64,000 nucleotides of DNA, taken from contig NZ_CP045798.1 in the NCBI RefSeq assembly GCF_000746025.2, positions 186,001 to 250,000 of the forward strand. Reading direction: 5' to 3'. The notes beneath the pieces were generated by a model. That model searched no databases. It was not told the DNA's origin and saw nothing but the letters and a program-made list of their open reading frames with translations. Below are positions 8,576 to 24,922 of this stretch, one piece after another. Source of the stretch: Thermanaerosceptrum fracticalcis. Its GTDB lineage: Bacteria > Bacillota > Peptococcia > DRI-13. The first letter of the stretch is position 1. Each line of letters begins with the position of its first letter. A program made the translations under genes and the position numbers.

Positions 8576-8619
8576 TTTTTAAATAAGCCTTAAATATTAA
8601 ACAAAAAAGGAGTGGGTTA

Positions 8620-9753: not shown

Positions 9754-9850
9754 ATAGGGTTCAGTTATTCTGCCAGGTGTACAAAAAACTGACATATGTA
9801 TACAGTAAAAAGAAGCTCTCTTTCAAAGAAGCGTGTTGTTACACGCTTCT
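9693..9850 (+). repeat. Left copy of the direct repeat bounding the accessory segment
   Basis: Covers the last ~20 codons of the M24 gene, its stop, a 31-bp repeat copy (9774-9804) and the following hairpin. By eye it aligns with 22624-22790 in the same order, with about a dozen differences in the first ~119 bases but none in the 31-bp core. Together the copies enclose ~12.8 kb. Confidence 0.75.
9774..9804 (+). repeat. 31-bp repeat, copy 2
   Basis: Identical over 31 bases to the copy at 22707-22737 and 26/31 to 6888-6918. It lies just after the M24 stop and has no -24/-12 promoter downstream in the present arrangement, consistent with its original target having been moved away by the inserted segment. 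Confidence 0.6.
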
Positions 9851-9854
9851 TATT
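9826..9854 (+). terminator. Terminator after the M24 gene
   Basis: AAGAAGCGTGT / ACACGCTTCTT stem, loop TGTT (9826-9851), ending in a short T-rich stretch. A related hairpin follows the right copy of the direct repeat at 22761. Confidence 0.65.
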
Positions 9855-10266
9855 AGTACGAAAATAACCCTATCAAATAATCAATATGCTTGTAAGGCAA
9901 AAAAGACAATAACGAACTAGCAGATGCAAGTTCATGCATCTGACGGATTAATCCTTCTGGAGGATATAACTGTTAGACAGCTTACTGGACTTCTCTCACC
10001 TCCAGACCGAGTTTTTTAGCTTCGGCAATAATTCTTTTTACACGGAATTTTTCCTGTTTTAGTACGAAAATAACCCTATCAAATAATCAATATGCTTGTA
10101 AGGCAAAAAAGACAATAACGAACTAGCAGATGCAAGTTCATGCATCTGACGGATTAATCCTTCTGGAGGATATAACTGTTAGACAGCTTACTGGACTTCT
10201 CTCACCTCCAGACCGAGTTTTTTAGCTTCGGCAATAATTCTTTTTACACGGAATTTTTCCTGTTTT
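9855..10266. repeat. Tandem duplication of 206 bp at the IS110 element's 3' side
   Basis: Two back-to-back copies, 9855-10060 and 10061-10266, appear identical. Each holds the last ~25 codons of the IS110 transposase reading frame (minus strand) plus ~130 bases of its downstream flank. Only the copy at 10061 is joined to the rest of the transposase, so the outer copy is a detached element end. Confidence 0.9.
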
Positions 10267-11425
10267 TGTTTAGCTTTTTCAAAGGATGTCTCGTCGTAGT
10301 CAACATCTTTCTTCAATAAGTTGTAAATGATCACGAGGAGCTTTCTGGCTAATGCAATGAGAGCTTTCTTGGCCCCGCGGCGTTGTTTTATCTTCCAGTA
10401 CCAAGACGATAAATAGCTATCGCGTATTCGGGTGATGCACCAGGCAATTTCGCAAAGGATTCGTTTTAGATAGGTGTTGCCATGGGTGGTACGGGTGGAC
10501 TTTTTTTTCCTGCACTTTCATTATTACCAGGACTTAAGCCCGCCCAGGAACAGATATGTTCCGCGGTTTTGAATCGGCTCATATCAATGCCGATTTCCGC
10601 CAAGATTGCAGCAGCGGCGGTTTTGTCAATCCCCGGGATGCCGTCCAGTTGCTCCAGTTGTCTTTGATATTGCTTGAGTTTTTCCTCAAGCTTTTGCTCT
10701 ACCTGGTGAAGATGCTCGTAGTGCTGATCCAGCCACCCTAGCAAAAGCTTGAGGAACTCCCTTTGGTGAACATCCATTTTACCATTGACAGCCTGTTTGA
10801 TCTCATGGAGCTTGCTCTTAGCGCGCCCCTTTACAAATGTTTCTACTTCGCGGGCAGATATCTTCCCGTAGCAGCAAAGGTGATCTATAATTGCTCGGCC
10901 TGATACGCCGAATATATCGGTAAGAAATGTTGACAGCTTAAAGCCGCAGCTTTGTAAGTGCTTTTCAATCCGATTTTTCTGGGAAGTAATTTCCTCGACG
11001 ATGCTTTTACGGTACCGGGTCAGATTACGGAGTTCCCGGATAGGTTTCGAGGGGATAAAACTTCCTTCTAACAATCCGGCACGCAAGAGAGTGGCTATCC
11101 ATTCAGCGTCCTTCATGTCGGTCTTTTTGCCAGGAACATTCTTCATGTGCCGGGCGTTGGTAACAATCAAAACCATACTGCCGTCAAAGGCTTCTTCCAG
11201 TACGTTATATACAGGCTGCCAATAAACACCAGTACTTTCCATAGCCACATTCCGGCAGTTTTCCTCTTCCAGCCAGGCTTTTAGTTCATCAAGTCCAGCA
11301 AGAAGGGTGGAAAAAGTGCGGATGGTTTTAACTGGTTCCCCGTCAACATTGCCTTTTAATAAGCAGGCGACAACAGTTTCCTTGTGGACATCAAGACCAC
11401 AACAAATTTCCAGAATGTCTTGCAT
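10188..11425 (-). CDS. IS110-family transposase, frameshifted at an A8 tract
   Basis: N-terminal DEDD (RuvC-like) domain is clear: CGLDVHKETVVACLL, AMESTGVYW, TDMKDAEWIA. The C-terminal transposase domain begins at LEQLDGIPGIDKTAAAAILA and continues with CSWAGLSPGNNESAG. At ~10500 a run of eight A in the coding strand (GGA AAA AAA AGT) throws the frame out, giving an early stop at 10466. A -1 shift restores KKKSTRTTHGNTYLKRILCE and reads on to TAA at 10188, for ~412 residues, the normal family length. The shift may be programmed slippage on the A-tract or a disabling mutation. Start ATG at 11425 follows AGGAG by 8 bases; the GTG at 11434 lacks that spacing. Confidence 0.88.
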
Positions 11426-11435
11426 ACGACTCACT

Positions 11436-11590
11436 CCTGCTCCAATGGATTTCAGGGATGATTGCCCGAGAAAATATGGAGTTTAGTACCCGTGCTGTTC
11501 CCAAGTCCTTAAAAACAAGGGGCGACAATTGGCCGTGCTCAAAGGCAATCAGGTTAGGTTTTTAGTCGAGGTTATACCATCAAAATACAA
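11436..11590 (-). ncRNA. Candidate IS110 bridge-RNA region upstream of the transposase
   Basis: IS110-group elements encode a guide (bridge) RNA in the non-coding end upstream of the transposase. This stretch lies in that position, has no reading frame and contains several short complementary blocks, such as TTGGCC near 11530 and GGCAATCAGG near 11545. Placement rests on known IS110 architecture, not on a recognised sequence match. Confidence 0.35.
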
Positions 11591-11835
11591 TCAACCTTTG
11601 TCCCTGATAATTCCAATGTAGCAGAAAATTAGACCATTGTAATCACTTCTACATATTTTCATAATTGGTTGTGCCTTCTAGGCATGGGTGGTTTTTAGGT
11701 AATCTTATAATTTCCTAAAAATAGGGGTGTGTTAGGGGACTATTTTACCCGGAGGGAACTTAATGCTCCTTACTTATCCTGTGCATGGCCCGGGAAATAC
11801 TGATAATGATCCTGGATTGTAGAGGAGGTTTTGTT

Positions 11836-11892
11836 ATGCTAAAATTGAGCACGGATGAAGGAAGGGCGATAGGAATGGAGAGGGTGACCTAA
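11836..11892 (+). CDS. Possible 18-codon leader peptide
   Basis: ATG at 11836 is spaced 7 bases from a strong GAGGAGG and reads MLKLSTDEGRAIGMERVT before TAA at 11892, 19 bases ahead of the dipeptidase start. The good ribosome site argues for translation, and it may couple to the next gene. It could equally be the stub of a lost gene. The rest of 11591-11835 is AT-rich upstream sequence in which I see no clear promoter. Confidence 0.3.
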   Translation: MLKLSTDEGRAIGMERVT

Positions 11893-11911
11893 AGAATGGG
11901 GAGAGGATAAA

Positions 11912-13300
11912 ATGGAGATCGATTTGGACAGGCAAGTTCTCGTGTATAGAGAACAGATTGTGAAACATACTTCGGAACTGGTCAGGATAAAAAGCATACT
12001 GGAACAGCCGGCAGGTCCGGATAAGCCTTTCGGGGAAGGAATAGACGAGGCGCTGCAGTATGTGTTGCGGTTGGGAGAAGAACTAGGACTAAAAACAAAG
12101 AACGTGGACGGATATGCGGGATATGTGGAAATAGGCGAAGGAGCAGAAATGGTGGCCGCGTTATGCCACGTAGACGTGGTGCCCGAGGGGGACGGATGGA
12201 AATATCCGCCTTATGAGGGACAGGTGGTAAACGGGAAAGTATACGGCAGAGGGGCTTTAGACGACAAAGGACCTCTGATTGCCTGCTTGTTTGCCATGAA
12301 AGCCATCAAGGATACGAACTTAAATTTCGGGAAAAGGGTCCGGCTCATCATTGGTACCGATGAGGAAACGGGAGGAAGGTGTATCAAGCATTACCTGGAG
12401 AATGAGGAAAGGCCCTTGTACGGCTTTTCGCCTGATGCGGAATTTCCTGTCATATATGCGGAAAAAGGCATTTTAAGGTTTGAGCTGGAGGCAAGGTTCA
12501 GCCAGGAAGCCGTGGCAGGCAGTGTAATAGAGTATATAAAGGGCGGTACCAGGGCAAATGTAGTGCCGGATTATGCCGAGGCCCGGTACAAGACAGATGT
12601 GGGTATACATGAAGTTATAGACGCTCTGGGATTGGGAGAAAAAATAAAAGTTTACAGGGAGCGGGATGGCGTCCTTATCAAGTCTTATGGGATATCTGCT
12701 CATGCCAGTCTTCCGCACCAAGGTGAAAACGCTATTGGTCAACTGGTCAAGGTCTTAAGCAGGCTGGAACTGAAATCGGGGGAGATGAAGGAATTCCTCG
12801 CGAAACTGGATGGCAAGGTGGGTATGGGAACAGATGGGAAGGGCCTGGACATAAAATGTAGTGATGCCGTATCGGGCCCCTTGACGCTGAACATAGGCAT
12901 AATAGATTTAAGCCCCTCTGGCGGTAAAGTTGTTTTTGATGTAAGGTATCCTGTGACTGCAGATTTTGCCGGGATATGGGCTAGCATACAGCAAGGACTG
13001 GCTGATCAAGGAACAGAAGTAAACATAGCAAACCATAAACCACCCCTATATGTTGATAAGGATAAGCCTCCTATCGCCATGCTGCAGCGGGCGTACCAGG
13101 AAGTAACGGGCCTTGAGCCTACCCTGCTGTCCATCGGCGGGGGGACTTATTGCAGGTATGTGGAAAACACCGTGGCTTTCGGGCCGGTCTTCCCGGGCCA
13201 GATGGAACTGGCTCACCAGGTGGATGAGTACATTTCAACGGAGGATCTGGCAAAGATTGCGAGAATATATGCCCAAGCTTTGTATCTTATGGCCAGGTAA
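11912..13300 (+). CDS. M20 family dipeptidase (PepV / Sapep type)
   Basis: 462 residues, the usual length for PepV-like M20 metallopeptidases. Zinc-site motifs in order: HVDVVPEGDGW (His-x-Asp), GRGALDDKGP (bridging Asp), GTDEETGG (catalytic Glu-Glu), FSPDAEFPVIYAEKG (Asp) and AHQVDEY near the C-terminus (His). A dimerisation/lid insertion lies between. Such enzymes cleave dipeptides or N-acyl amino acids in the cytoplasm. The start is ATG after GGGGAGAGG. It opens the accessory operon, although a strong hairpin separates it from the next gene. Arginine is written almost wholly with AGG/AGA, as in the rest of this operon and unlike the flanking genes. Confidence 0.85.
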   Translation: MEIDLDRQVLVYREQIVKHTSELVRIKSILEQPAGPDKPFGEGIDEALQYVLRLGEELGLKTKNVDGYAGYVEIGEGAEMVAALCHVDVVPEGDGWKYPPYEGQVVNGKVYGRGALDDKGPLIACLFAMKAIKDTNLNFGKRVRLIIGTDEETGGRCIKHYLENEERPLYGFSPDAEFPVIYAEKGILRFELEARFSQEAVAGSVIEYIKGGTRANVVPDYAEARYKTDVGIHEVIDALGLGEKIKVYRERDGVLIKSYGISAHASLPHQGENAIGQLVKVLSRLELKSGEMKEFLAKLDGKVGMGTDGKGLDIKCSDAVSGPLTLNIGIIDLSPSGGKVVFDVRYPVTADFAGIWASIQQGLADQGTEVNIANHKPPLYVDKDKPPIAMLQRAYQEVTGLEPTLLSIGGGTYCRYVENTVAFGPVFPGQMELAHQVDEYISTEDLAKIARIYAQALYLMAR

Positions 13301-13329
13301 AAAATATAGATAGATTGTTCAGTAGAAAA

Positions 13330-13385
13330 GATGTACAGTGGCACCGGGCATTGCCCGGCAGGAGGCCATGTGCATCTTTTTTTTT
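13330..13385 (+). terminator. Strong terminator inside the accessory operon
   Basis: Long imperfect stem from GATGTACAGTGGC to GGCCATGTGCATC with an inner CCGGGC/GCCCGG helix, followed by nine T (13377-13385). It should stop most transcripts after the dipeptidase gene, so the genes from 13588 may have their own promoter or depend on read-through. Nothing else is evident in 13386-13587. Confidence 0.8.
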
Positions 13386-13587
13386 GGTAGGTGCAATTTT
13401 GTACAATTGGTACCCCAAAACAATGGGCAGTTGCATACAGGATGAAGCTGGTTCTTTGCTGAATACACTAGCAATGTTCCGGCCCTGCCGGAGCCAAAAC
13501 CCTTGTCCTTTAGCCCCCTTCATTCCTGGGAGCAATTTAGAGATTCAAAAAGTATAGAACATTCAGCGAGAAAGGAGCAAGGCAGGT

Positions 13588-14247
13588 ATGGAAAAATACA
13601 GGATTGGAGTTATCAGGGTTTTAACCACCCAGGATCCCCAAATATTGCACGCCCATGGAGATTTACTGGAGAGGTATTTCCCGCAGTTTCAAATCGAGAC
13701 CAGGTGCATCCCGGACCAGCCCTATGGAATATATGATGAGGTTACCTTTCAGGTGGCGCTACCTAAGATAATAAAGCTGGCACTAGAGTGGGCGCCTTAT
13801 TTGGACGGATTGATTGTAAGCTGTGCAGGGGATCCTGGGGTGGACGAACTAAGGAAGTTGCTGGCCATTCCCGTTGTGGGAGCTGGCACAGCCACAGCAG
13901 CCTACAGTCTGACCTTGGGAGAAAGAGTTGGCATCATAGGGATCGAGGAAAACAGCCCCGCTAAATATGACAGGATATTGGGCAGCAGGTCCGTGGGCTA
14001 TATCCGTCCGGAAGGAGTGAGAAACACACTGGATCTTCTCACTGAGGAAGGCAGGGAAGCTGTTTTACATGCTTGCAGGAGATTGAGAGGGCAGGGAGCA
14101 GAAGCAATTGCCCTGGCCTGTACAGGCATGTCTACCGCCGGGATAGTGCCTTTTTTGCAAAAGGAGGTTGCCATACCTGTGGCGGACCCTGTAATAGCTG
14201 AGGGCATCATGATGCTCGGCCAATGTGTCCATAAAAGAGCAAATTAA
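13588..14247 (+). CDS. Asp/Glu/hydantoin racemase-family protein
   Basis: 219 residues. The two catalytic cysteines of the family are present in matching halves: IVSCAGDPG (Cys79) and ALACTGMS (Cys178). VPVVGAGTATAAYSL-like and RVGIIGIE segments match the Asp/Glu/hydantoin racemase fold. Two-base racemases of this type interconvert D and L forms of amino acids or hydantoins in the cytoplasm. Start ATG follows GAAAGGAG. It lies upstream of a DUF917 gene, a family often found beside hydantoinases, which makes a hydantoin or cyclic-imide substrate plausible; no hydantoinase itself is present here. Arginine codons are nearly all AGG/AGA. Confidence 0.8.
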   Translation: MEKYRIGVIRVLTTQDPQILHAHGDLLERYFPQFQIETRCIPDQPYGIYDEVTFQVALPKIIKLALEWAPYLDGLIVSCAGDPGVDELRKLLAIPVVGAGTATAAYSLTLGERVGIIGIEENSPAKYDRILGSRSVGYIRPEGVRNTLDLLTEEGREAVLHACRRLRGQGAEAIALACTGMSTAGIVPFLQKEVAIPVADPVIAEGIMMLGQCVHKRAN

Positions 14248-14292
14248 AAACCTTTACAAGTGTGCCATAAAACAAGGGGAGATGAATTGTTT

Positions 14293-15381
14293 ATGGATGG
14301 GAGTATTATCACGATTACCCCCGAAATAGCTAGGGCTGCTGTATACGGAGGAGCGTTCCTGGGCGGGGGTGGGGGAGGATCTGTGGAGACAGGATTGATT
14401 ACGGCTCTGGAAGCGCTGAAACTGGGTGATATAAAGATTGTCCCCCTTGACTGCATCGCTGACGATGCCAGTGTTATAACAGCCTCGGCCGTGGGAGCAC
14501 CCGCTGCCCAGGAGGGGTATGTGACGGCTGAGCACTGCAAAAGGGCAATGGAGCTTTTTCAAGATTTTTTCCACCAGGAGATCAAAGGTGTGATTACCAA
14601 CGAGAATGGCGGTCATTCCACCACCAACGGCTGGGTCCTTTCTGCTATAACAGGTATACCCGTAATTGACGCTCCATGTAACGGCAGGGCTCATCCCACC
14701 GGGCAGATGGGCAGCATGGGACTCAGCATGGATCCTTCTTATGTTAGTTGCCAGGTGGCCGTGGGAGGTAAGGAAGAAACGGGAAAATACCTGGAAATGG
14801 CCGTCCGTGGCAGGCTTGATGCGGCTTCTAGGCTTGTAAGGCGGGCAGCGGTGGAGGCAGGAGGGCTGGTTACGGTCCTCAGGAACTGTGTAAAGGCTGG
14901 TTACCTGAGGAAAAATGCTGCACCCGGAGCATTGAAACAGGCTATTAAAGTAGGGGAAATTTTTCTAAATAATGAAGGGGACTATATCAAAATACTACAA
15001 GGTCTTTCTCGTTTAATGCCCCTCGAAGTAATAAGTGAGGGGACCGTTAGGGATTTTAAACTGGAAACCCGGGACGGGTTCGATGTGGGCAAGATGATGA
15101 TCAATGAGATTGAAGTCACCTTTTGGAATGAATACATGACCGTGGAAAAAGAGGGAGAAAGACTGGCCACCTTTCCCGATCTGATTGTTACGCTGGACTT
15201 AGAGACGGGAAAGGTGAAAACCAGCGCGCAAGTGGCAAAGGGCGATAAATTAGCCTTGATTAAGGTTCCCAAGCACGCATTGATCCTGGGTAAAGGCATG
15301 TATGACCAGCAACTGTTTGTAGAAGTGGAAAGGATAATCAATAAACAAATGGTAGATTATCATTTCTCGCAGGGGGATTGA
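14293..15381 (+). CDS. DUF917 family protein
   Basis: ~362 residues from the ATG at 14293 (an upstream GTG at 14260 would add 11 residues but is poorly supported; TTG 14287 is also possible behind AGGGGAG). The DUF917 hallmark is clear: a glycine-rich turn GGAFLGGGGGGS near the N-terminus, then NENGGHSTTNGW and DAPCNGRAHPTGQMGSMG. Members occur alone or fused to hydantoinase subunit A, and some act on thiohydantoins. The neighbouring racemase supports a role in handling a hydantoin-like or cyclic peptide-derived compound. The reaction in this organism is not known. Spaced 36 bases from the DUF1177 gene. Confidence 0.83.
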   Translation: MDGSIITITPEIARAAVYGGAFLGGGGGGSVETGLITALEALKLGDIKIVPLDCIADDASVITASAVGAPAAQEGYVTAEHCKRAMELFQDFFHQEIKGVITNENGGHSTTNGWVLSAITGIPVIDAPCNGRAHPTGQMGSMGLSMDPSYVSCQVAVGGKEETGKYLEMAVRGRLDAASRLVRRAAVEAGGLVTVLRNCVKAGYLRKNAAPGALKQAIKVGEIFLNNEGDYIKILQGLSRLMPLEVISEGTVRDFKLETRDGFDVGKMMINEIEVTFWNEYMTVEKEGERLATFPDLIVTLDLETGKVKTSAQVAKGDKLALIKVPKHALILGKGMYDQQLFVEVERIINKQMVDYHFSQGD

Positions 15382-15417
15382 TCACCGCGAAAAAGATTTG
15401 ATTTCAGGAGGATTGTC

Positions 15418-16362
15418 ATGGTCTTAAAACAGCTGTTAGAGATTTTTGAATTGCTTGACAAGGCGGATGCTAATGGTTATGAGGTAGCGGCTTTTTTGAG
15501 GAGTAGAGGGACCCAGGATGTGGAAGTAAAAACGGTTAAAGGTCCTAAAGGTTCTACGGATGCAATTAAGGTTTTAATCAGGGGAAGTAAGGGCAAGGCC
15601 GGTGGTGGTACTGCCCCCACCCTGGGAGTCATTGGCAGGTTAGGAGGACTGGGAGCGAGACCGGAAATTGTCGGGTTCGTTTCAGACGGTGATGGAGCTC
15701 TTGCTGCCCTGGCCGTAGCGCTAAAACTTGCAGACATGCAAAAAAACGGAGATTTGCTGAAAGGGGATGTGATTGTTACAACCCACATCTGCCCTGATGC
15801 ACCGACCAAGGAGCATAGGCCTGTTCCTTTCATGGATTCGCCCATAGATATCAAGACAATGAACGAACTGGAAGTAACTCCCGCTATGGATGCTATCTTG
15901 TCTATAGATACCACCAAGGGAAACAGGGTAATCAATACCAGGGGATTTGCCATCTCGCCCACAATCAAGGAAGGATATATATTAAAAACCAGTGATGACT
16001 TGCTGGACATTATGACGAGGACCACCGGAAAACTTCCCATTGTATTCCCCGTGACCCATCAGGATATCACCCCTTACGGTAATGGCCTTTATCATCTCAA
16101 CAGTATCTTGCAGCCTGCCGTGGCCACCAGCGCTCCGGTAGTAGGCGTGGCTATCACTGCTGAAATGCCTGTACCCGGTTGTGCCACGGGAGCCAGCCAT
16201 CCCCTTGACATAGAAGGAGCCTGCAGGTTTGTCATTGAGGTAGCTAAAAGCTTTGGCGACGGAAAATGTGAGTTTTACAACAAAGACGAATACACTAGAA
16301 TAACCCAGCTTTATGGAGATTTAAAAAGATTCCAAACTATGGGGGCTGTCGAAAGTGAATAG
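15418..16362 (+). CDS. DUF1177 family protein
   Basis: 314 residues matching the DUF1177 family by its running motifs: GVIGRLGGLGARPEIVGFVS, DVIVTTHICPDAPT, PFMDSPIDIKTMN and AEMPVPGCATGASHPLDIEG. Conserved His, Cys, Asp and Glu positions suggest a metal-dependent hydrolase-like fold, but no activity is established. DUF1177 genes are commonly seen beside OPT transporters and AroM-like genes, as here. The stop overlaps the start of the next gene by 8 bases, so the two are translationally coupled. Confidence 0.82.
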   Translation: MVLKQLLEIFELLDKADANGYEVAAFLRSRGTQDVEVKTVKGPKGSTDAIKVLIRGSKGKAGGGTAPTLGVIGRLGGLGARPEIVGFVSDGDGALAALAVALKLADMQKNGDLLKGDVIVTTHICPDAPTKEHRPVPFMDSPIDIKTMNELEVTPAMDAILSIDTTKGNRVINTRGFAISPTIKEGYILKTSDDLLDIMTRTTGKLPIVFPVTHQDITPYGNGLYHLNSILQPAVATSAPVVGVAITAEMPVPGCATGASHPLDIEGACRFVIEVAKSFGDGKCEFYNKDEYTRITQLYGDLKRFQTMGAVESE

Positions 16363-17881
16363 GGTTCAGTTTACGTTGACAGTGGAAGAAGGTAAACAAC
16401 TCATAGCCAGGGGGGTGGCCCAGCACCCCCTGTTAAAAAACGCTCTAATTAACGGGAAAGTAGTATTGAAAGGTGGAACCACGGTATCGAAAATTGCGGA
16501 GATACTCATTGGCAGGCCCTTAAGAATTTCCGGAAGAATCACGGAAAGAGGGACTGTTGCCGGTCTCATCGATACCAGCGATCCCCATTCGGTGCTTATC
16601 GAAAAGGGAGATTGGAGAAACATCGATGACACTATTGTGGAAGAGGTACAGCAGTTGGGCCCCAGGGACGTAATTGTTTCCGGAGCCAACGCCATTGATG
16701 GAAACAAAAAGGCTGCCCTGATGGCCGGCAGCGCAGGCGGCGGCAATGTAGGTAAATCCTTGAGTTCCTGGTACTGCGAGGGGGCTCACGTCTTGATTCC
16801 TGTAGGCCTGGAAAAGCTAGTGCCTGGAAACCTGGAGGAAATAATCAAGGAGACCGGCAGGAAGGGGAAAGACCTGTCGTGGGGCATGTCTGTAGGGCTG
16901 ATGCCCATATACGGGGAGGTTATAACCGAGATTGAAGCGGTAAAACATCTTGCTGCCGTTGAATGTCACGCCATTGGTGCAGGAGGGATTGGCGAGGCCC
17001 AGGGCAGTGTGACCCTGGAAGCATGGGGGCAGGAAGAAGAAGTATTAAAGCTTATCCAGGTTATCAGCGAGATCAAAGAAGGTGTTAACGAAGTATCGGG
17101 CACCAGGCAGTCCCTGGTCCAGTGCCAGACCCCCTGCCAGGGATGCGGCAGGCATATTGGCTGCGGGTATAAGCTGAATATGATAAAAGAGAAAAAGAGA
17201 GTTAAAATCGGCGCCATCACCATAGGACAGTCACCCCGAGACGATATGGTTCCCGATATCGAACGGGTCCTCGGTCAACACATCATGATCATACAAAAGG
17301 GAGCCCTGGATGACTTTACTTATGAACAGGTTGTGCACAGCTTCAGCCCCAAGGAGGGAGACGAGGTCCTGGTCACGCGCATGCGGGATGGCAGGCAGGT
17401 TAAAATTGCCGAGCATCACCTTTTGCCCCTGTTGCAAAACGCCATCGACCAACTGGAAAGGCATGGTGTGGAGGCCAATCTCCTATTATGCACGGGGAGG
17501 TTCCCCGAATTTAGGCATAGCAATCTCTTGCTGAAACCCCAGGACCTTCTTCATTCTGTAACGGCTCAGGTGGCCGCTGGACAACCGGTGGGCCTTCTCA
17601 TACCCGATGAAGACCAGCGGGAACAAATTGCCGCCTGGTGGAACAGAAGCGGAGTCAAGGTTGAGGTCGAAGTGGCGTCCCCTTATCAAGACTTCAGGCA
17701 CATAGAGGATGCAGCCGAAAGGTTGAAAACAAAAGCTGTCTCCTTGATTTTCATGGACTGTATGGGTTATACGGTAAAAATGAAGAACAGGGTCAAGGAG
17801 ATTACGGGGAAACCTGTGATGCTGCCCAGGACGCTGGCGGCCAGGGTAGTCGCGGAATTGTTTAATCCTGTGACTGCCTGA
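16355..17881 (+). CDS. AroM-family protein fused to an unrecognised N-terminal domain
   Basis: 508 residues, about twice the usual AroM length. Residues ~280-508 are a complete AroM domain starting VKIGAITIGQSPRDDMVPDI and containing LLLCTGRFPEF and IFMDCMGYT. Residues 1-~275 belong to a family I do not recognise; notable parts are a glycine-rich AGSAGGGNVGKS at ~128-139, CHAIGAGGIGEAQGS and a cysteine cluster CQTPCQGCGRHIGCGYK just before the AroM junction, which could bind a metal or iron-sulfur cluster. AroM proteins have no settled function; they resemble Asp/Glu racemase-like folds. The GTG start overlaps the DUF1177 stop. No internal ribosome site is seen at the junction, so the fusion looks real. 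Confidence 0.75.
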   Translation: MNRVQFTLTVEEGKQLIARGVAQHPLLKNALINGKVVLKGGTTVSKIAEILIGRPLRISGRITERGTVAGLIDTSDPHSVLIEKGDWRNIDDTIVEEVQQLGPRDVIVSGANAIDGNKKAALMAGSAGGGNVGKSLSSWYCEGAHVLIPVGLEKLVPGNLEEIIKETGRKGKDLSWGMSVGLMPIYGEVITEIEAVKHLAAVECHAIGAGGIGEAQGSVTLEAWGQEEEVLKLIQVISEIKEGVNEVSGTRQSLVQCQTPCQGCGRHIGCGYKLNMIKEKKRVKIGAITIGQSPRDDMVPDIERVLGQHIMIIQKGALDDFTYEQVVHSFSPKEGDEVLVTRMRDGRQVKIAEHHLLPLLQNAIDQLERHGVEANLLLCTGRFPEFRHSNLLLKPQDLLHSVTAQVAAGQPVGLLIPDEDQREQIAAWWNRSGVKVEVEVASPYQDFRHIEDAAERLKTKAVSLIFMDCMGYTVKMKNRVKEITGKPVMLPRTLAARVVAELFNPVTA

Positions 17882-17989
17882 TATTTAAGTTCAAGGTTTA
17901 TATAGATGATTTCTCATCAATAAAACAAGGGCAATAATCTGAATATAAAGGAATATCGAGTTAAATCAATAAAGACAGGGTGGTTTGTT

Positions 17990-19054
17990 GTGGAACTAAA
18001 CATTGGAATTGAGCCGGCAAGTCAATATCTCTCTTTTGAAACGGCAAAGGGTGCCTTGAAGTTGGTGAAGGATGTGATGCTGGTTAAAGAAGGGGAAAAC
18101 GTGGTTATCACGGCTGATACTGCCACCGACAGGAGGGTTGTGGAGGCTGCGGCCAATGCCGTATATTCTATTGGCGCTATCCCTACCGTAATCTATTACC
18201 CGACCGCTCCCAACGCGTGCATTGAACCGCCTAAACCGATAGGTTCAGCGGTAGCCGATGCCGATGTTTGGATTGAATTTACCTATTCGTATATTATGCA
18301 TACCCCTGCCTGGAAAAAGTCGATCAAAAACGGGGTCAGGTATATTTGCCTTACGGGTATGGATGTGGAGATGATGGTCAAAACCATTACAAGAGTGGAT
18401 TATGACCTGATGATAGAGATGGGAGAAAAACTTAAGGAAATCTGCCAGTCTGCCGATGAAGTAATTATCAAAAGTGAGAACGGGACTAACCTTAAAGCAT
18501 ACAACCGGGGCAGGAAAGTACGCCATTCAGGGCAAAAAGCCATCCATAAAGGCTATCCTGTCATGCTGGGAGGACAAGTGAGCTGGTGTCCTATCGAGAG
18601 CACGATCAATGGGACTCTGGTCTTTGATGGTGCCTTGTTCCCGCCCTTCGAGCTGGGGATCTTGCGAAACTCCGTAAAACTGGAACTTCGGGAAGGTAGA
18701 GTGGTTGATATCCAAGGTGGAGTAGAAGCCCAGATTTTTGCTAACTGGCTGAAATCATTCAACGATCCCAATATGTACCGGCTGGCCCACTATTCCCTCG
18801 GTTTTAATCCCGGTGTAACCAAACCCACAGGAAGGATAGTTGAAGACGAGAGGGTCTTTGGTTGCATCGAAATGGGTATTGGCAGCCAGGGGGCCCAAAT
18901 TATGGGTGAATGCTGGTCCGCCGCTTCCCACACGGACGGCATTGTCTTGAGGCCCACCATAATTCTGGACGGTGTCACCCTTGAAGAGAACGGGATCTAC
19001 CAATTGCCTGAAATCAGAGAATTCTGCAAAAAATTAAATATTACAGGCTATTAA
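17990..19054 (+). CDS. M29 aminopeptidase / NicX-like metalloenzyme
   Basis: 354 residues of the family that joins M29 (aminopeptidase T) peptidases with 2,5-dihydroxypyridine 5,6-dioxygenase (NicX). Supporting segments are LVKEGENVVITADTATDRRV near the N-terminus, GGQVSWCPIESTINGTLVFD in the middle, and the C-terminal ligand motifs AHYSLGFNPG (His) and ASHTDGIVLRP (His-x-Asp). The start is GTG behind AGGGTGG. In an operon with an OPT transporter and an M20 dipeptidase, a peptidase role is more likely than ring cleavage, but both belong to this fold. AGG-rich arginine usage continues. The 108-base gap upstream has no obvious terminator. Confidence 0.75.
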   Translation: MELNIGIEPASQYLSFETAKGALKLVKDVMLVKEGENVVITADTATDRRVVEAAANAVYSIGAIPTVIYYPTAPNACIEPPKPIGSAVADADVWIEFTYSYIMHTPAWKKSIKNGVRYICLTGMDVEMMVKTITRVDYDLMIEMGEKLKEICQSADEVIIKSENGTNLKAYNRGRKVRHSGQKAIHKGYPVMLGGQVSWCPIESTINGTLVFDGALFPPFELGILRNSVKLELREGRVVDIQGGVEAQIFANWLKSFNDPNMYRLAHYSLGFNPGVTKPTGRIVEDERVFGCIEMGIGSQGAQIMGECWSAASHTDGIVLRPTIILDGVTLEENGIYQLPEIREFCKKLNITGY

Positions 19055-19171
19055 TAAGTTAGACTTTATCTAATGTTTGGCTTAAGGAAAGGGGGTGATT
19101 ATCAAATTACACCGTGAATTCACCGGAGAGCGCTGGAATGTATTTCAAATTAAGAGTAAAGGGGGAAGTAT

Positions 19172-20782
19172 ATGGATAAATATAATGGCGACACAACTAA
19201 ACACGTTTCTTTGTTTGAACCGCTTACCTTGGTTTTGATTCTAGCCACAGGTATTTTTGGAGCCATTATTGGCCTGCAATTAATTGTTTCATTGGGTATT
19301 ACCGCCAATACATCCATTATAGGGGCCCTGATCGCCATGGCTGTCGCCAGGCTTCCTATCAGTATATGCCGCAGGTTTAGGAATGTGCACCGGCAGAACT
19401 TCATTCAAACTTCGATTTCGGGGGCCACGTTTGGTGCGGCCAACAGTTTATTGATTCCTATAGGTATACCGTATCTCATGGGCAAACCTGAGCTGGTAAT
19501 GCCAATGTTGATTGGTGCGGGGGTGGCCATGATTGTCGATGCCACTATTCTGTACCGGATGTTTGACTCCAAGGTATTCCCCGCCAGTGGGGCGTGGCCG
19601 CCCGGGGTAGCTACCGCCGAAGCCATCATTGCCGGCGACCAGGGAGGGAAAAGGGCCAGGCTGCTGGGTTACGGTGTAGCCGGCGGTGTTTTGGGCTCTT
19701 ATCTCGGTATTCCCATGTCTGCTTTCGGTGTGGCATTTATAGGTAACATCTGGGCTTTGACCATGTTTGGTATAGGCCTGTTGCTCCGCGGGTATTCCAT
19801 CTCCCTTTTCGAGATTGACATCAATAAATTGTATATCCCCCATGGCATAATGATTGGTGCCGGGCTGGTAGCCCTGATCCAGGTTACCCTGGTGATATTC
19901 CGGAAGAAAAAAGAGGAAGTAGCCAGGTCAGAATCGGCGGCAGCTAAGGAATATAGTTTTACCAGGACGGAAAAAGACGCCCAGCAAACACTGGTTTACG
20001 GGGCCGCTGCCTACATTATTATCTCTGTTCTCATCGCTTTCTTTGGTGGTATTTATGCTGAGATGTCCTTAGGCATGTTATTGCTGTATCTTATTTACGC
20101 TGCTTTTGCCGCCTACGTTCATGAAATCATCGTTGGTATTGCGGCCATGCATTCCGGATGGTTCCCTGCTTTTGCTGTTGCCTTAATTACTTTAGTAATT
20201 GGAATTTTAATTGGTTTTCCCCCCGTTGCCCTTGCCCTCCTTGTTGGATTCAGCGCGGCCACGGGCCCGGCTTTTGCTGATATGGCTTACGACCTGAAGA
20301 CAGGTTATATCCTCCGCGGTTACGGGAAAGACACGGAGTTTGAAATGACAGGGCGCAGGCACCAATTCTATGCCGAGTTGATCGGTTTTGCCATTGCTTT
20401 TGTAACGGTACTGTTGAGCTACAAGCTGTACTTTGCTCAGAATCTTTTCCCGCCCGTAGACAGGGTTTATGCCGCCACAATCAAGGCCGGCGTATCCAGC
20501 GACATAGCGAGGCAGCTGTTCTTGTGGGCCATACCGGGCGCCATCATTCAATTGCTTGGCGGCCCTGAACGCCAAATGGGCGTGCTCTTAGCTACCGGTC
20601 TTTTGATTTTGAATCCCAAAGCAGGTTGGGCAGTGCTTACCGCCATTTTGATCAGGACAATTATCCTGAAAGTCAAAGGCAAGGAAGCCGAGACCCCAAT
20701 GAGCATTGTTGCCGCAGGCATCATTGCCGGCGATGCCTTATACAGTTTCTTCAGTTCGTTGTACAAATATAAGAAGCTGTAA
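19172..20782 (+). CDS. OPT family oligopeptide transporter
   Basis: 536 residues with ~14 predicted membrane helices. OPT features include SLFEPLTLVLILATGIFGAI at the N-terminus, FIQTSISGATFGAANSLLIP, the FPASGAWPPGVATAEAIIAG segment, and GFSAATGPAFADMAYDLKTG. OPT carriers are proton-coupled importers of oligopeptides, modified peptides or metal chelates. ATG is preceded by AAAGGGGGAAG. It is the last gene of the accessory operon, ending at a terminator shared with the convergent PucR gene, and is the probable entry point for the operon's substrate. Confidence 0.9.
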   Translation: MDKYNGDTTKHVSLFEPLTLVLILATGIFGAIIGLQLIVSLGITANTSIIGALIAMAVARLPISICRRFRNVHRQNFIQTSISGATFGAANSLLIPIGIPYLMGKPELVMPMLIGAGVAMIVDATILYRMFDSKVFPASGAWPPGVATAEAIIAGDQGGKRARLLGYGVAGGVLGSYLGIPMSAFGVAFIGNIWALTMFGIGLLLRGYSISLFEIDINKLYIPHGIMIGAGLVALIQVTLVIFRKKKEEVARSESAAAKEYSFTRTEKDAQQTLVYGAAAYIIISVLIAFFGGIYAEMSLGMLLLYLIYAAFAAYVHEIIVGIAAMHSGWFPAFAVALITLVIGILIGFPPVALALLVGFSAATGPAFADMAYDLKTGYILRGYGKDTEFEMTGRRHQFYAELIGFAIAFVTVLLSYKLYFAQNLFPPVDRVYAATIKAGVSSDIARQLFLWAIPGAIIQLLGGPERQMGVLLATGLLILNPKAGWAVLTAILIRTIILKVKGKEAETPMSIVAAGIIAGDALYSFFSSLYKYKKL

Positions 20783-20803
20783 CGCCAGTTGGCGAGCAGT
20801 GTA

Positions 20804-20836
20804 GGGTGCTGTCTTTATGGAAAGCACCCTTTTTTT
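20804..20836 (+). terminator. Terminator of the accessory operon
   Basis: GGGTGCT / AGCACCC hairpin with a 12-base loop (20804-20829) followed by seven T. It lies between the convergent OPT and PucR genes. Confidence 0.8.
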
Positions 20837-20839
20837 GTT

Positions 20840-22474
20840 TTATTTGACAATATTTTTTATATCATGGAATTTCAGGTTAAGCAGCAAAAGGAGTCTGCCT
20901 TCACTGTCATAGGGGTTGTAGCCTGTAATCTCTGTGATTTTTTGGAGCCTGTTGTACAGGGTGTTCCGGTGAATAAACAGTTTTTTGGCCGCATTGCCAA
21001 TCTTGCCGTCGGAGTCTATAAAGGTTGCCAGGGTTTTTAAAAGCTCGCTCCCGTTTAACTGGTCGAAGGAGGTCAGTTTTTCCACGGTGTTTTCATATAT
21101 TTTCATCATCATGGGGTGATTGGCATATTCGTATAGGAGATGATAAACTGTTAGGTCCTTGTAGAAGTATACGCCGCGTACCATACTTGAAACCCTGGGA
21201 CCAATATAACAGCTGAGCAGGGCTTCTTCGTAAGCCGCTTTGAGATCTTGCAGAGTGTCATGTTCTCTGCTGACCCCAGCGATAAACGTATGCTGTGAGG
21301 AGGTATCGTTCAGAGTGTTCAGGATCCTGGCAAAATAGTCCCGTGTTAACAAACTGCCACTGTCCTGGGCCAGATGGATGCAGATGAGCTTGCTGTCATC
21401 GGCGATAAACGTCGTATCAGGGCAGTATTTTTCCGCCTTTAGGCGGGCCTTATCCATTATGGTCCCGGTATTTTTGCCCTTGCTGTTTTTTTCCTGTTTG
21501 CTTTCCTGGAGGCTTATGACCCAGACCAGGTTTTTCGTGTTGATGTCCAGCTTGTAAAAAGTAGCGTCCCGGTGCAATTCACTGTTGTTGAGATAGTTCC
21601 CGTGCAGCAGGTCCAGGAAAAAATCTTCCTTGGACTTGTTCTGAATCTTGTCTTTATGGTTGGAAATCATCCAGATGGTCAGATAAAGAATGGTTTCTTT
21701 GATTAGTTGCAGGTACTGAGGCAGAAAATCCTGATCATAGCTGGTATCGATGATGCACAGGTAGCCCAGCAATTGTTCCGGTTCTTTAATAGCAAATATA
21801 TGGTAATAGGCATTTTCGTCCTTGTATGTAAAAGGCACATTTATGAACTTTATCTGGTCAGAGTGTTCCTGAATGACATTGATCATGCGGCTCACGGGGA
21901 GCCGCTCCAGGGCTTTGGTCGGGTGCTGGACAGTGTTTAATATCTTGTAACGGTTGGAGAGCATAAATATAGGCATGTTGATGTAGGTTTTTAACAAATG
22001 AAGAATGTTGTTAAGATCAAAGTTTTGATTGGCAATGGATGAAAGGTTGTTGGTGAATTGTTCAAAGACATAGGAAGAATAGCTCCTTTCACCCAGCAGC
22101 TTGCTCATAATGGGCCGTGTGAGGTCGCTATAACCCAGCTGTATGGGAATTTCAAGGAGGGGAACCCCAATCCTGTTGGCGAGCTCCAGGATTTCCGGCG
22201 AGAGTTTTTTCAGGAATCTCCCTGTTTTTATACCGATACCGGAGCATTTCTTGCTGTTTAAGACCTCTATGGCATGATAAAGGCCTTTTTGGTCGTTTTG
22301 GAAAACATAGCCGGTTGTGATAATAAAATCTCCCTCTTGGGCCCAGTAGATGCCATCGGGTACTTCCAAAATTTCCACATCTTTGATGACCCTGTTTATC
22401 CCTTTGGAGCCGGCTATAATCTGGATATCTTTGAAATTCTTATCCAAATACAATAAGTCCTTGACCCTTAACAC
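20840..22474 (-). CDS. PucR family transcriptional regulator
   Basis: ~544 residues. Residues ~5-120 form the PucR N-terminal sensing domain (GINRVIKDVEILEVPDGIYW, GDFIITTGYVF, GIGIKTGRFL), a GGDEF-like middle follows, and ~480-540 are the PucR C-terminal helix-turn-helix (GNAAKKLFIHRNTLYNRLQK). GTG at 22474 lies 6 bases after GGGGG; the GTG three codons earlier overlaps the ribosome site. PucR regulators usually respond to a small catabolic substrate (first known for purine breakdown). Its convergent position next to the OPT operon within the same direct-repeat-bounded segment makes that operon the likely target. No binding site was identified. Confidence 0.88.
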   Translation of the reverse strand: MLRVKDLLYLDKNFKDIQIIAGSKGINRVIKDVEILEVPDGIYWAQEGDFIITTGYVFQNDQKGLYHAIEVLNSKKCSGIGIKTGRFLKKLSPEILELANRIGVPLLEIPIQLGYSDLTRPIMSKLLGERSYSSYVFEQFTNNLSSIANQNFDLNNILHLLKTYINMPIFMLSNRYKILNTVQHPTKALERLPVSRMINVIQEHSDQIKFINVPFTYKDENAYYHIFAIKEPEQLLGYLCIIDTSYDQDFLPQYLQLIKETILYLTIWMISNHKDKIQNKSKEDFFLDLLHGNYLNNSELHRDATFYKLDINTKNLVWVISLQESKQEKNSKGKNTGTIMDKARLKAEKYCPDTTFIADDSKLICIHLAQDSGSLLTRDYFARILNTLNDTSSQHTFIAGVSREHDTLQDLKAAYEEALLSCYIGPRVSSMVRGVYFYKDLTVYHLLYEYANHPMMMKIYENTVEKLTSFDQLNGSELLKTLATFIDSDGKIGNAAKKLFIHRNTLYNRLQKITEITGYNPYDSEGRLLLLLNLKFHDIKNIVK

Positions 22475-22623
22475 ACGGTTCACCCCCTTCGCCAGTATTC
22501 TGATCCCTTGTAGATGAGCTATCTTCTACAAAAGGCAAATAGCTGGTTGTTCAAATATTGGTCCAAGTCTGAAATTTTTTGCTTTAATTCTAGCATAATT
22601 TTAAAAACCAAGGTACATTAAAA

Positions 22624-22743
22624 TGAAAAATGAAGCCAGGGTGATTACTGACTATTCCAGGGAATTGAAAGATCTAATTTTCTCAATAGGGTTTCAGTAA
22701 TCCTGTCAGGTGTACAAAAAACTGACATATGTATACAGTAAAA
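22624..22743 (+). pseudogene. Relic of the M24 gene 3' end (right copy of the direct repeat)
   Basis: Reads EARVITDYSRELKDLIFSIG, matching the C-terminus ARVITDYPWELKDLIF of the intact M24 protein. The original TAA has become TCA, so the frame runs on to a later TAA. Homology continues through the 31-bp repeat and the next hairpin (to ~22790). Nothing of the upstream part of the gene is present. The flanks 22484-22623 hold only AT-rich upstream sequence of the PucR gene. Confidence 0.8.
22707..22737 (+). repeat. 31-bp repeat, copy 3 (candidate activator binding site)
   Basis: Identical to 9774-9804. It lies ~190 bases before the -24/-12 promoter at 22929, within the range used by sigma-54 activators. 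The core has no changes while the surrounding duplicated DNA has diverged, which argues for selection on the site. Confidence 0.6.
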
Positions 22744-22760
22744 CAATTTCTTCTGATCAG

Positions 22761-22788
22761 AGAGCGTGTGTTTACACGCTCTTTTTTT
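22761..22788 (+). terminator. Terminator following the M24 relic
   Basis: Perfect stem AGAGCGTGT / ACACGCTCT, loop GTTT, followed by T6 (22761-22788). It is the counterpart of the hairpin at 9826 and would isolate the dehydrogenase operon from upstream transcription. Confidence 0.85.
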
Positions 22789-22851
22789 AAAAAATACAGA
22801 AGTATAAGTTTGAGGAGGCATAAGTGCAACTAAGGCTTCCGCCTGCGACAA

Positions 22852-22932
22852 GGCTTGCACCACGGCACAAGTCTCGCTGCGTCGCCGTGCTCCTAGTCTC
22901 GTATGGCGCAAGCCAAGTTTTCTTTACTTGGC
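22852..22932. repeat. GC-rich nested inverted repeats overlapping the sigma-54 promoter
   Basis: GGCTTGC (22852) pairs with GCAAGCC (22908), and CACGGC (22861) with GCCGTG (~22884). GCCAAG (22912) pairs with CTTGGC (22927), which contains the -24 element. Base composition differs sharply from the AT-rich surroundings. This may be a mobile palindromic repeat or a regulator site. Confidence 0.5.
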
Positions 22933-22944
22933 ATACTTCTTGCA
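22929..22944 (+). promoter_or_regulatory. Sigma-54 (-24/-12) promoter for the dehydrogenase operon
   Basis: TGGCAT-N5-TTGCA with the exact GG-to-GC spacing of sigma-54 promoters, 36 bases before the first gene of the operon at 22980. It is paired with the upstream 31-bp repeat at 22707. Confidence 0.85.
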
Positions 22945-22979
22945 ATATATAGTGATTACAACGACAGGGGGGAACAACC

Positions 22980-23285
22980 ATGCGCGTATACGAACATCCC
23001 ATCTTAGATTTTACAAGGGAAAAGAAGATTAAGTTTACCTATAACGGCCGGGAATTAGAAGGCTTTGAAGGCGAGACCGTTGCCGCAGCACTCCACGCTA
23101 ACGGGATACGAACCATGCGGGAAAGTATTCACCTGCACCGCCCCCGGGGCTTGTTCTGCAATATTGGCAATTGTTCATCCTGTTTAATGATTGTGGATGG
23201 CAAACCTAATGTGCGGGTATGTGTGGAAAAATTACGGGAAGGTATGAATGTTATGACCCAGAAAGGGAAGGGTGAGTTGAAGTGA
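22980..23285 (+). CDS. (2Fe-2S)-binding subunit of an amino-acid dehydrogenase (HcnA-like)
   Basis: 101 residues. A plant-type [2Fe-2S] domain equivalent to the N-terminus of heterotetrameric sarcosine oxidase alpha and to HcnA; cluster ligands appear in CNIGNCSSC and a later Cys (VRVC). It should pass electrons between the flavin subunits and an acceptor in the cytoplasm or at the membrane. ATG is preceded by GGGGGGAA. It overlaps the next gene by four bases and is the first gene behind the -24/-12 promoter. Proline, D-hydroxyproline, sarcosine, glycine-cyanide and opine dehydrogenases all use this subunit, so the substrate is not fixed by it. Confidence 0.85.
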   Translation: MRVYEHPILDFTREKKIKFTYNGRELEGFEGETVAAALHANGIRTMRESIHLHRPRGLFCNIGNCSSCLMIVDGKPNVRVCVEKLREGMNVMTQKGKGELK

Positions 23286-24403
23286 TAGCGTGTGAAATTT
23301 GTGTTATTGGCGGAGGTCCGGCGGGCCTGATGGCAGCCCTTCATGCCGCTTCCTTGGGGGCTTCCGTTGTCATTATTGACAGGAATGATTACCTGGGGGG
23401 GCAGCTAATCAAGCAAACCCATCGTTTCTTTGGTTCCAAAGAACAGCGGGCTTCAGAACGGGGTGTCAATATTTCACGGGAACTTTCTTTTGCTGTGGAA
23501 GAGGAAGAAAACATTAAAGTTCTGACTGCCGCAACAGCCCTGGGCTACTATAAAGACGGCGTAGTGACTGTAGAGAAAGATGAAAGGTTCCTGAAAATCA
23601 AGCCCCAAAAAATCATTGTAGCCACCGGAGGAGCTGAAAAGACCCTGCCGTTTCCCAACAATGATTTACCTGGCGTTTATGGGGCCGGAGCCGTACAAAC
23701 CCTCGTCAACGTCTATGGGGTCAAACCTGGGCAGCGGGTTTTAATGGTGGGAGCAGGTAATATTGGAGTTATAGTAAGTTATCAGCTCCTGCAGGCCGGG
23801 GTGGAGGTAGCCGGGATAGTAGAGGCGGCCCCACGGATTGGGGCCTACTGGGTTCATGCGGCCAAGGTAGTACGGGCTGGCGTACCCATCTATACCAGGC
23901 ACACGATTAAGGGGGCCTGGGGGGAAAAGGAAGTAGAAGGTGCCACGACCGTGGAGTTGGATGATCAATGGCGGCCCATACCGGGGACAGAAAAAGATTT
24001 TGACGTGGATGTTATCTGCCTGTCTGTAGGACTAAGCCCCCTTACGGAAATTCTCTGGCAGGCGGGTTGTGCTATGAAATATGTTCCCGAATTAAGCGGT
24101 TATGTTCCCTTAAGAAACGTGGACATGGAGACCTCGGTACCGGGTATTTATATTGCCGGTGACGCAGGCGGTATAGAGGAAGCATCGGCAGCCATGATGG
24201 AAGGTGCCCTGGCGGGGCTAAGTGCCGCCAGAGCCCTGGGATATTCAGCATCGGACTTTAACAGCCGCCGGGCCAATATTTTAAGGGAATTGGAGAACTT
24301 ACGCTCAGGACCGGTGGGAGAGAAAATCAGAAAAGGACTGAAAAAAGTGACCCTAATCGAGAGGCAAGAATTTAGAGTTTTACCTCTAAGCTCTAATTTC
24401 TAA
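23282..24403 (+). CDS. FAD/NAD-type oxidoreductase subunit (HcnB / sarcosine oxidase alpha-like)
   Basis: 373 residues with two Rossmann folds: FAD-binding GGGPAGLMAALHAASLGA near residue 10, and a second nucleotide-binding GAGNIGVIVSYQLLQAG at ~157. A C-terminal YIAGDAGGIEEASAAMMEG closes the FAD site. It corresponds to HcnB or the alpha subunit of multi-subunit proline/hydroxyproline dehydrogenases, transferring electrons from the amine-oxidising subunit to NAD or another carrier. GTG start overlaps the preceding stop (GTGA). The cysteine-rich C-terminal part found in some homologues is supplied here by the separate genes at 24427 and 24923. Confidence 0.88.
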   Translation: MIACEICVIGGGPAGLMAALHAASLGASVVIIDRNDYLGGQLIKQTHRFFGSKEQRASERGVNISRELSFAVEEEENIKVLTAATALGYYKDGVVTVEKDERFLKIKPQKIIVATGGAEKTLPFPNNDLPGVYGAGAVQTLVNVYGVKPGQRVLMVGAGNIGVIVSYQLLQAGVEVAGIVEAAPRIGAYWVHAAKVVRAGVPIYTRHTIKGAWGEKEVEGATTVELDDQWRPIPGTEKDFDVDVICLSVGLSPLTEILWQAGCAMKYVPELSGYVPLRNVDMETSVPGIYIAGDAGGIEEASAAMMEGALAGLSAARALGYSASDFNSRRANILRELENLRSGPVGEKIRKGLKKVTLIERQEFRVLPLSSNF

Positions 24404-24426
24404 GATCTAACAAAGGGGGTAGTATT

Positions 24427-24921
24427 GTGTTAGCAGAAAACGGTGTTCCCACCATAGAAGACCTGGCCCAGGTTTTACCCGCTCCGGAGAGGTTAGCCCG
24501 GGGGCCTGTAGCCATTGCCGAATGTTTTCAGGAAATACCTTGTGATCCCTGTTATCACAGCTGCCTGCGGCGGGCCATCGCTCCTTTTGCCGATATTAAT
24601 GAAAGACCGCGGATTGACCATGAAAAATGTAACGGCTGCGGTTTATGCGTTAACCGCTGTCCGGGGTTGGCTATCTTCGTAGTTGACCAGACTTACAGTG
24701 ATAGTGAGGCCCTGGTAAAACTGCCTTATGAATTTTTGCCTTTACCGAAACCGGGAGATATCGTTAGCGCTATTAACCGTTCAGGGGCGGCAGTGGGCGA
24801 AGCCCGCGTGGTGAAGGTCCAGTCCGGGAAGCAAATGGATGGTACAAATATCGTCTGGTTGGCCGTACCCCAAGATCTTTCTATGGAAGTGCGTCATTTT
24901 AAAATGGAGGAGGTACGGTAA
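24427..24921 (+). CDS. 4Fe-4S ferredoxin-like subunit of the dehydrogenase complex
   Basis: 164 residues. One canonical [4Fe-4S] motif CNGCGLCVNRCPG lies at ~75-87, and an upstream cysteine group CDPCYHSC at ~42-49 may hold a further metal or half cluster. The C-terminal half (LPKPGDIVSAINRSG...) is a domain of unknown role seen in such subunits. It is comparable to the delta (ferredoxin-like) subunit of multi-subunit dye-linked proline dehydrogenases of archaea. GTG start follows AAAGGGGG. Lies between the FAD and BFD-like subunits with minimal spacing, so it is probably a structural member of the same complex. Confidence 0.78.
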   Translation: MLAENGVPTIEDLAQVLPAPERLARGPVAIAECFQEIPCDPCYHSCLRRAIAPFADINERPRIDHEKCNGCGLCVNRCPGLAIFVVDQTYSDSEALVKLPYEFLPLPKPGDIVSAINRSGAAVGEARVVKVQSGKQMDGTNIVWLAVPQDLSMEVRHFKMEEVR

Positions 24922-24922
24922 C

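Follow-up and report, generated by a model that had tools for sequence, protein, structure and literature searches.

Gene content and organization of the locus

The window analysed here is a stretch of 64,000 nucleotides of Thermanaerosceptrum fracticalcis (contig NZ_CP045798.1), corresponding to positions 186001-250000 of a 3.8-Mb single-contig genome. Between positions 11912 and 22483 it carries eight genes, which encode an M20 dipeptidase, a racemase-family protein, DUF917, DUF1177, AroM, a putative metalloenzyme, an OPT-family importer and a PucR-type regulator, and which belong to a conserved and co-inherited gene set possibly dedicated to the import and breakdown of a small peptide-like amide. 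All eight open reading frames (ORFs) named in an initial annotation of this DNA, made from the sequence alone, were present and intact. Seven of the eight family labels passed curated cut-offs of Pfam or NCBIfam profiles, the exception being the label 'M29-like', and the end of the set was moved from 22474 to 22483, to which the PucR gene runs. The following features were recorded.

11912-13300, plus strand: M20 / PepV-type dipeptidase (NCBIfam NF005591, 506.7 bits, cut-off 435)
13324-13382, plus strand: intrinsic-terminator hairpin after the M20 gene (fold -31.4 kcal/mol, z -5.6), then a U-run
13588-14247, plus strand: Asp/Glu/hydantoin racemase-family protein (PF01177, 8.8e-25; invariant C79 and C178)
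14260-15381, plus strand: DUF917 / S-Me-THD-like protein (PF06032, 5e-24, and PF20906, 3e-23)
15418-16362, plus strand: DUF1177 (PF06675, 2.7e-137; predicted clan MH (M28/M42/M20) fold)
16355-17200, plus strand: N-terminal domain of the AroM ORF (no Pfam entry; predicted ISOCOT-like; C-terminal Cys/His motif)
17201-17881, plus strand: AroM domain (PF07302, 1.6e-78; NF007788, 212.3 bits, cut-off 198)
17990-19054, plus strand: putative NicX/M29-superfamily metalloenzyme (nearest PDB entry 7cn3, NicX, 1.4e-10; H267, H314-x-D316)
19172-20782, plus strand: OPT-family importer (PF03169, 2.9e-32)
20803-20836, no strand assigned: terminator hairpin and U-tract between the OPT and PucR genes (-16.4 kcal/mol, z -4.6)
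20840-22483, minus strand: PucR-type regulator (PF07905, 4.8e-28; PF13556 (HTH_30), 8.5e-20)

The core transcription unit probably extends from 13588 to 20782 (racemase-DUF917-DUF1177-AroM-NicX/M29-like-OPT), and the PucR gene is convergent with it on the opposite strand. The M20 gene is probably transcribed separately, because it is directly followed by a strong terminator hairpin with a U-run; despite this terminator, the same M20 subfamily reappears in the clusters of relatives. The true start of the DUF917 gene is probably nearer to 14293 than to 14260. No riboswitch or regulatory RNA was found at Rfam gathering scores within positions 7000-24000.

Conservation and co-inheritance of the gene set

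The locus was compared with 59 DUF1177 neighbourhoods, 19 from species genomes and 40 from 398 sampled genomes of the phylum to which the window belongs. ORFs were called mechanically, and iterated profiles built from the window proteins were searched against them at strict score thresholds. Since DUF1177 was the search query, all shares are conditional on it, and its constancy across the variants shows what accompanies DUF1177 and not its universality in such pathways. OPT, DUF917, DUF1177 and AroM (either part of the ORF) were found together in 18 of the 59 neighbourhoods. Four or all five of the partners OPT, DUF917, AroM, racemase and M29-like protein stood beside DUF1177 in 18/59 as well. 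OPT orthologues adjoined DUF1177 in 19 neighbourhoods, and PucR genes lay near it in 33. Genes in the conserved clusters mostly shared one strand and were separated, or overlapped, by a few bases. Outside the core set, no further pathway enzyme common to all full clusters recurred in the neighbourhoods compared.

Among the 398 genomes, DUF1177 was present in 46, a strong match to AroM in 41 and both in 36 (Fisher p 1.3e-36, a value that is overstated because the sampled species are not independent). The carriers of DUF1177 span 37 genera, and the distance between DUF1177 and AroM was at most 5 kb in 28 of 34 compared pairs. The families therefore co-occur beyond this genome, and the earlier claim of a coherent set with importer, racemase, peptidase and regulator is borne out: the set is conserved, co-inherited and widespread beyond the window genome. 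A chance neighbourhood of unrelated catabolic genes was ruled out by this co-occurrence, by synteny and by the dedicated DUF917 clade described below.

A DUF917 subfamily tied to DUF1177 and AroM

A long branch with 100/100 support in a maximum-likelihood tree built from 38 DUF917 proteins separated all 23 copies from window-type clusters, including the haloarchaeal one, from the copies linked to HyuA or to cyclodipeptide oxidases (CDOs). The window genome has two further DUF917 genes in a distant chromosome region, both on the other side of the branch. Because the window-type clade is separate and the genome's own two other copies fall outside it, the window DUF917 belongs to a subfamily that goes with DUF1177 and AroM and is no stray hydantoinase partner. 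The window protein scored below both NCBIfam cut-offs for S-methyl-thiohydantoin/thiohydantoin desulfurases (276.6 against 440 bits and 262.5 against 450 bits), and no convincing relative of solved structure was found by sequence. At positions 3374000-3393900 of the same genome, a cluster of NCS1 permease, DUF917, HyuA, racemase and M19 dipeptidase faces a second DUF917 gene; the genome holds at least two different DUF917 pathways.

DUF1177 and the two parts of the AroM ORF

The AlphaFold2 model of DUF1177 (pLDDT 85, pTM 0.89) resembles clan MH aminopeptidases (Foldseek 3e-8). It aligned with the TET M42 structure 5ds0 over 227 residues (Z 18.0, 3.1 Å) and with the Aeromonas/Vibrio aminopeptidase 3b35 (Z 17.8), and the predicted fold is that of the M20/M28/M42 metallopeptidases (clan MH). 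For comparison the dizinc ligands of this clan, HxD/D/EE/D/H, were mapped by hand onto DUF1177. In nearly all of 62 sequences HxD corresponded to R74-x-G76, EE to I/V124-C125 and the final His to C255; D90 and D164 were kept, matching the bridging Asp and the third-ligand Asp. The model thus shares the fold of M28, M42 and M20 (Z ~18), but by this mapping the ligands appear to differ, and if the mapping is right the active site would have been rebuilt. A link between DUF1177 and M42 at the sequence level was not obtained, as hhalign against an M42 found nothing, and no convincing relative of solved structure was found by sequence. The Klebsiella copy of DUF1177 gave no match by DNA similarity in E. 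coli genomes. In two loci a gene of the set was broken into two ORFs, DUF1177 in L089 (9028-9971) and DUF917 in L129 (6906-7975); these split copies may be decaying or may reflect sequence errors.

In the 508-aa AroM ORF, PF07302 covers residues 285-503 (263.7 bits), and C379 and C469 (ORF numbering) were invariant in all 34 homologues. The E. coli AroM sequence dates from 1986, in a reference cited by PMC11055893 (2024); this paper describes the protein as still uncharacterised and its models as resembling racemases. This published resemblance and the invariant cysteine pair suggest that AroM might be a second two-thiol isomerase of the locus. The N-terminal domain showed 53 invariant columns over 10 homologues, in addition to its C-terminal Cys/His motif; it gave no Pfam match above cut-off and no convincing solved-structure relative by sequence. 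A moderate-quality model, made from 3 sequences (pLDDT 70, pTM 0.77), matched eIF2B over 153 residues (Z 10.8), and the fold may be ISOCOT-like (eIF2B/RpiA/CoA-transferase-like). More distant forms of the domain were present in 107 of the 398 genomes.

The AroM fusion noted earlier is present in the window, where both parts are joined in one ORF. It appears to be specific to the window, because the two parts were separate genes in every relative seen, including 31 near relatives and all of the loci that were examined, and it was rejected as a conserved architecture. The fusion (16355-17881) may be genuine or may stem from an error in the sequence. A second apparent fusion, in genome G310, was a GC-rich open frame without the N-terminal domain.

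Racemase-family protein, NicX/M29-like protein and M20 dipeptidase

The protein described earlier as a two-cysteine racemase-like protein indeed belongs to PF01177, both by profile and by its two catalytic-type cysteines, C79 and C178, which were invariant in 27/27 homologues. Its nearest solved structure was 2eq5, a 'hydantoin racemase' (1.7e-66).

Of the two probable peptidases proposed initially, the M20 protein stood as a PepV dipeptidase and the second was relabelled as a putative metalloenzyme of the NicX/M29 superfamily. The latter scored 17.5 bits with Pfam M29, under the gathering cut-off of 27, and was nearer to NicX, and an ordinary aminopeptidase was therefore rejected. NicX is a 2,5-dihydroxypyridine 5,6-dioxygenase with non-haem Fe, whose ligand residues were taken from PMC7910607; it is the nearest solved relative, with distant similarity only. 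The comparison covered three of its four ligands, His265, His318 and Asp320, the fourth being Ser302. H267 aligned with the Fe ligand His265 of NicX (7cn3). H314 and D316 were invariant in 19/19 homologues and have the form of His318/Asp320, but lie outside the aligned stretch. In relatives, a shorter paralogous M29-like type with Glu at the first position replaces or joins this protein. Since COX1 (cytochrome oxidase) is absent from the window genome, which looks anaerobic, an oxygenase role is unlikely, and a hydrolase or another O2-independent reaction would be expected.

The M20 protein had 3khx (1.1e-79) and PepV (1lfw) as its nearest solved structures, and H86, D117, E151, E152 and H435 were kept in 14/14 cluster homologues. 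As these catalytic residues are kept and the equivalog cut-off is exceeded, it is predicted to be an ordinary PepV-type dipeptidase, with nothing unusual among PepV/Sapep enzymes.

Variant clusters and known systems

Plasmids of Klebsiella and Sodalis carry an IclR-OPT-DUF1177-AroM-PepE-racemase operon. In Klebsiella pneumoniae it lies between insertion sequences on the conjugative plasmid pRHB26-C08_2 and in Sodalis on pHS1, and the OPT-DUF1177-AroM-PepE-racemase system is probably mobile. A haloarchaeal plasmid showed the order ABC importer-DUF917-DUF1177-AroM-aminopeptidase-racemase-aspartoacylase(-like), and a Niallia megaplasmid the order PucR-racemase-OPT-DUF917-DUF1177-AroM-M29-like. 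In Bacillaceae and Planococcus, DUF1177 was accompanied by an NCS1 permease, HyuA/HyuB, DUF917 and a nitrilase-family hydrolase. Thus the importer may be OPT, a dipeptide-type ABC system or an NCS1 permease, all of which take up small amides, peptides or heterocycles, and the hydrolase alternates between PepV, ArgE/DapE-type, PepE, aspartoacylase-like, nitrilase and HyuA/HyuB, all of which act on small amides.

A pair of CDO A and B subunits was found within one DUF1177 operon (L068) and beside another (L008). M29-like, DUF917, PucR, M20 and ABC importer genes also occur at CDO loci in the same phylum. The CDO B subunit (PF19585) was present in 10 of the 398 genomes, three of which also had DUF1177 (p 0.10, suggestive only). 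In locus L117 (from 5294; genome G171), a single ORF of 324 aa matched the CDO A and B profiles, with an M29-like gene adjoining and DUF917 nearby; it appears to be a fused CDO of the kind mentioned in PMC11055893.

According to the same paper, racemase, DUF917, AroM, OPT and peptidases are enriched around orphan (non-CDPS) CDOs. The window likewise has the racemase PF01177, DUF917, AroM, OPT and peptidase companions, but lacks the pair of CDOA (PF00881) and CDOB (PF19585), and its DUF917 belongs to another clade; DUF1177 and the AroM N-terminal domain are unnamed in the portion of the paper available. Clusters of the hyu type (NCS1 permease, HyuA/HyuB, hydantoin racemase, carbamoylase/nitrilase) have racemase and DUF917 in common with the window, which differs in its OPT importer and in lacking HyuA/HyuB (no PF05378/PF01968 in the eight proteins) and a carbamoylase of known type.

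Open-access full-text literature, with most subscription papers lying outside the search, yielded neither a paper on the whole gene set nor a functional paper on DUF1177. The earlier statement that no known pathway contains the whole set therefore agrees with the papers searched, but the combination of racemase, DUF917, AroM, OPT and peptidase had already been reported for CDO clusters (PMC11055893). The present analysis adds DUF1177 and the AroM N-terminal domain to the core of the set, recognises a DUF917 clade of its own and a form that lacks a CDO, predicts the fold of DUF1177 and relabels the M29-like protein. The conserved operon, with its importer and regulator, gives DUF1177 and AroM a testable role, and the window cluster, which naturally lacks a CDO, can serve as a comparison when the function of the many orphan CDO clusters is studied.

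Proposed function and alternatives

We consider it an evenly balanced proposition that the locus encodes an inducible system dedicated to taking up and degrading a small peptide-like amide; the likeliest substrate would be a dipeptide that is either cyclic (resembling a diketopiperazine or a hydantoin) or D-/iso-configured. Computed support comes from the make-up of the set, from the way in which its genes are conserved and inherited together, and from the predicted folds and the conserved residues. This substrate is favoured because of the importers and hydrolases of the variants, the CDO-carrying relatives and the toolkit shared with CDO loci. PucR would sense the substrate or a product, and OPT would import the substrate. 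The DUF917 protein and/or DUF1177 might then open the ring or the unusual amide, and the racemase and AroM, each with two invariant cysteines, might epimerise or isomerise the product. Finally, splitting of the linear dipeptide to amino acids could fall to the NicX/M29-like metalloenzyme together with PepV. The initial annotation had suggested breakdown of a modified, cyclic or D-amino-acid-containing peptide, with which the related loci are consistent (hydantoin-type genes, dipeptide ABC importers, PepE and two CDOs); we infer the substrate class, and likewise in what order the steps run, that they are catabolic rather than biosynthetic, and what DUF1177 and the AroM N-terminal domain do.

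Several observations weigh against this proposal. The classical peptidase ligands are apparently missing from DUF1177, judging by the hand mapping. Neither a hydantoinase (HyuA) nor a CDO nor any known type of cyclic dipeptidase is encoded in the window cluster, and the PF19585 search that was applied to the 398 genomes gave no CDO B subunit in the window genome. For every enzyme in the set, activity on such a substrate is a prediction. In 18 of the 59 neighbourhoods no partner accompanied DUF1177 at the thresholds used, some of these being contig ends, and DUF1177 may for this reason have a role wider than the proposed system. A more specific version is advanced only tentatively: dipeptides that are cyclic or of unusual stereochemistry would be degraded by a so far unrecognised, broadly distributed pathway in which three new enzyme families act together, without the CDO or hydantoinase of known routes. 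These would be DUF1177, with a metallopeptidase fold and a rebuilt active site, AroM, as a second two-cysteine isomerase, and the ISOCOT-like family of the AroM N-terminal domain.

Scavenging of nitrogen from hydantoins or ureides (allantoin-like), with the cluster as an offshoot of hydantoin utilisation, its racemase as a hydantoin racemase and DUF917 as the hydantoinase, is unlikely. It would fit the closeness of the racemase to 2eq5, the membership of the regulator in the purine-catabolism family PucR, and the Bacillaceae and Planococcus loci in which DUF1177 accompanies NCS1 permease, HyuA/HyuB, DUF917 and nitrilase. However, the window-type DUF917 clade is separate from HyuA-linked DUF917 (100/100), the genome carries a separate NCS1-DUF917-HyuA-racemase cluster at another site, and OPT, dipeptide ABC importers and dipeptidases indicate peptide-like substrates.

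The dipeptidase PepE is specific for Asp-X. Its presence in the OPT-DUF1177-AroM-racemase operon of the Klebsiella and Sodalis plasmids, together with the aspartoacylase-like gene of the haloarchaeal cluster, could indicate recycling of damaged aspartyl dipeptides (D-Asp, iso-Asp, aminosuccinimide) by Asp/Glu-family racemases and dipeptidases. Both names are annotations, however, and the window lacks both genes; membership in the Asp/Glu racemase family leaves the substrate unfixed, and this explanation seems quite improbable. For orphan CDO clusters, PMC11055893 proposes purine metabolism or secondary metabolites built on peptides, in line with which the locus could serve secondary-metabolite biosynthesis or modification rather than catabolism. 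We regard this as very improbable, given the importers, the dipeptidase, the PucR/IclR/Lrp regulators, the lack of a synthetase or exporter among the window cluster genes and the broad spread over Bacillota, plasmids of Enterobacterales and Halobacteria. Uptake of metal as a peptide or opine chelate from which the enzymes free the metal, suggested by the OPT/YSL family of the importer, whose members carry metal chelates in plants, is hardly credible for a cluster that lacks both a metal regulator and genes for making chelates and whose relatives replace OPT by dipeptide ABC importers or NCS1 permease.

Neighbouring genes

Upstream of the set, a second peptide-type uptake set occupies 5118-9753 on the plus strand, with a PrdR-like sigma-54 regulator (591 bits, cut-off 795), a sodium:solute symporter and an M24 Xaa-Pro-dipeptidase-like protein; an IS110 transposase gene (10466-11434) intervenes. 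An M24 gene beside a pyridoxal-phosphate (PLP)-aminotransferase-like ORF was also seen near the DUF1177 locus L076. Downstream, at 22980-29142 on the plus strand, follow genes for a Fer2_4 protein, an FAD oxidoreductase of the pyridine-nucleotide type, a ferredoxin, a small ORF, a DAO-family (sarcosine/D-amino-acid-oxidase-like) oxidoreductase, another ferredoxin and an aldehyde ferredoxin oxidoreductase (AOR). Relatives of the AOR were also found near DUF1177 in three loci (L085, L087 and L088). The region 29777-34935, likewise on the plus strand, encodes split glutamate-synthase-like proteins (glutaminase-like, FMN-binding and FwdC/GltB C-terminal-like) and a PadH/NirB-like FAD reductase.

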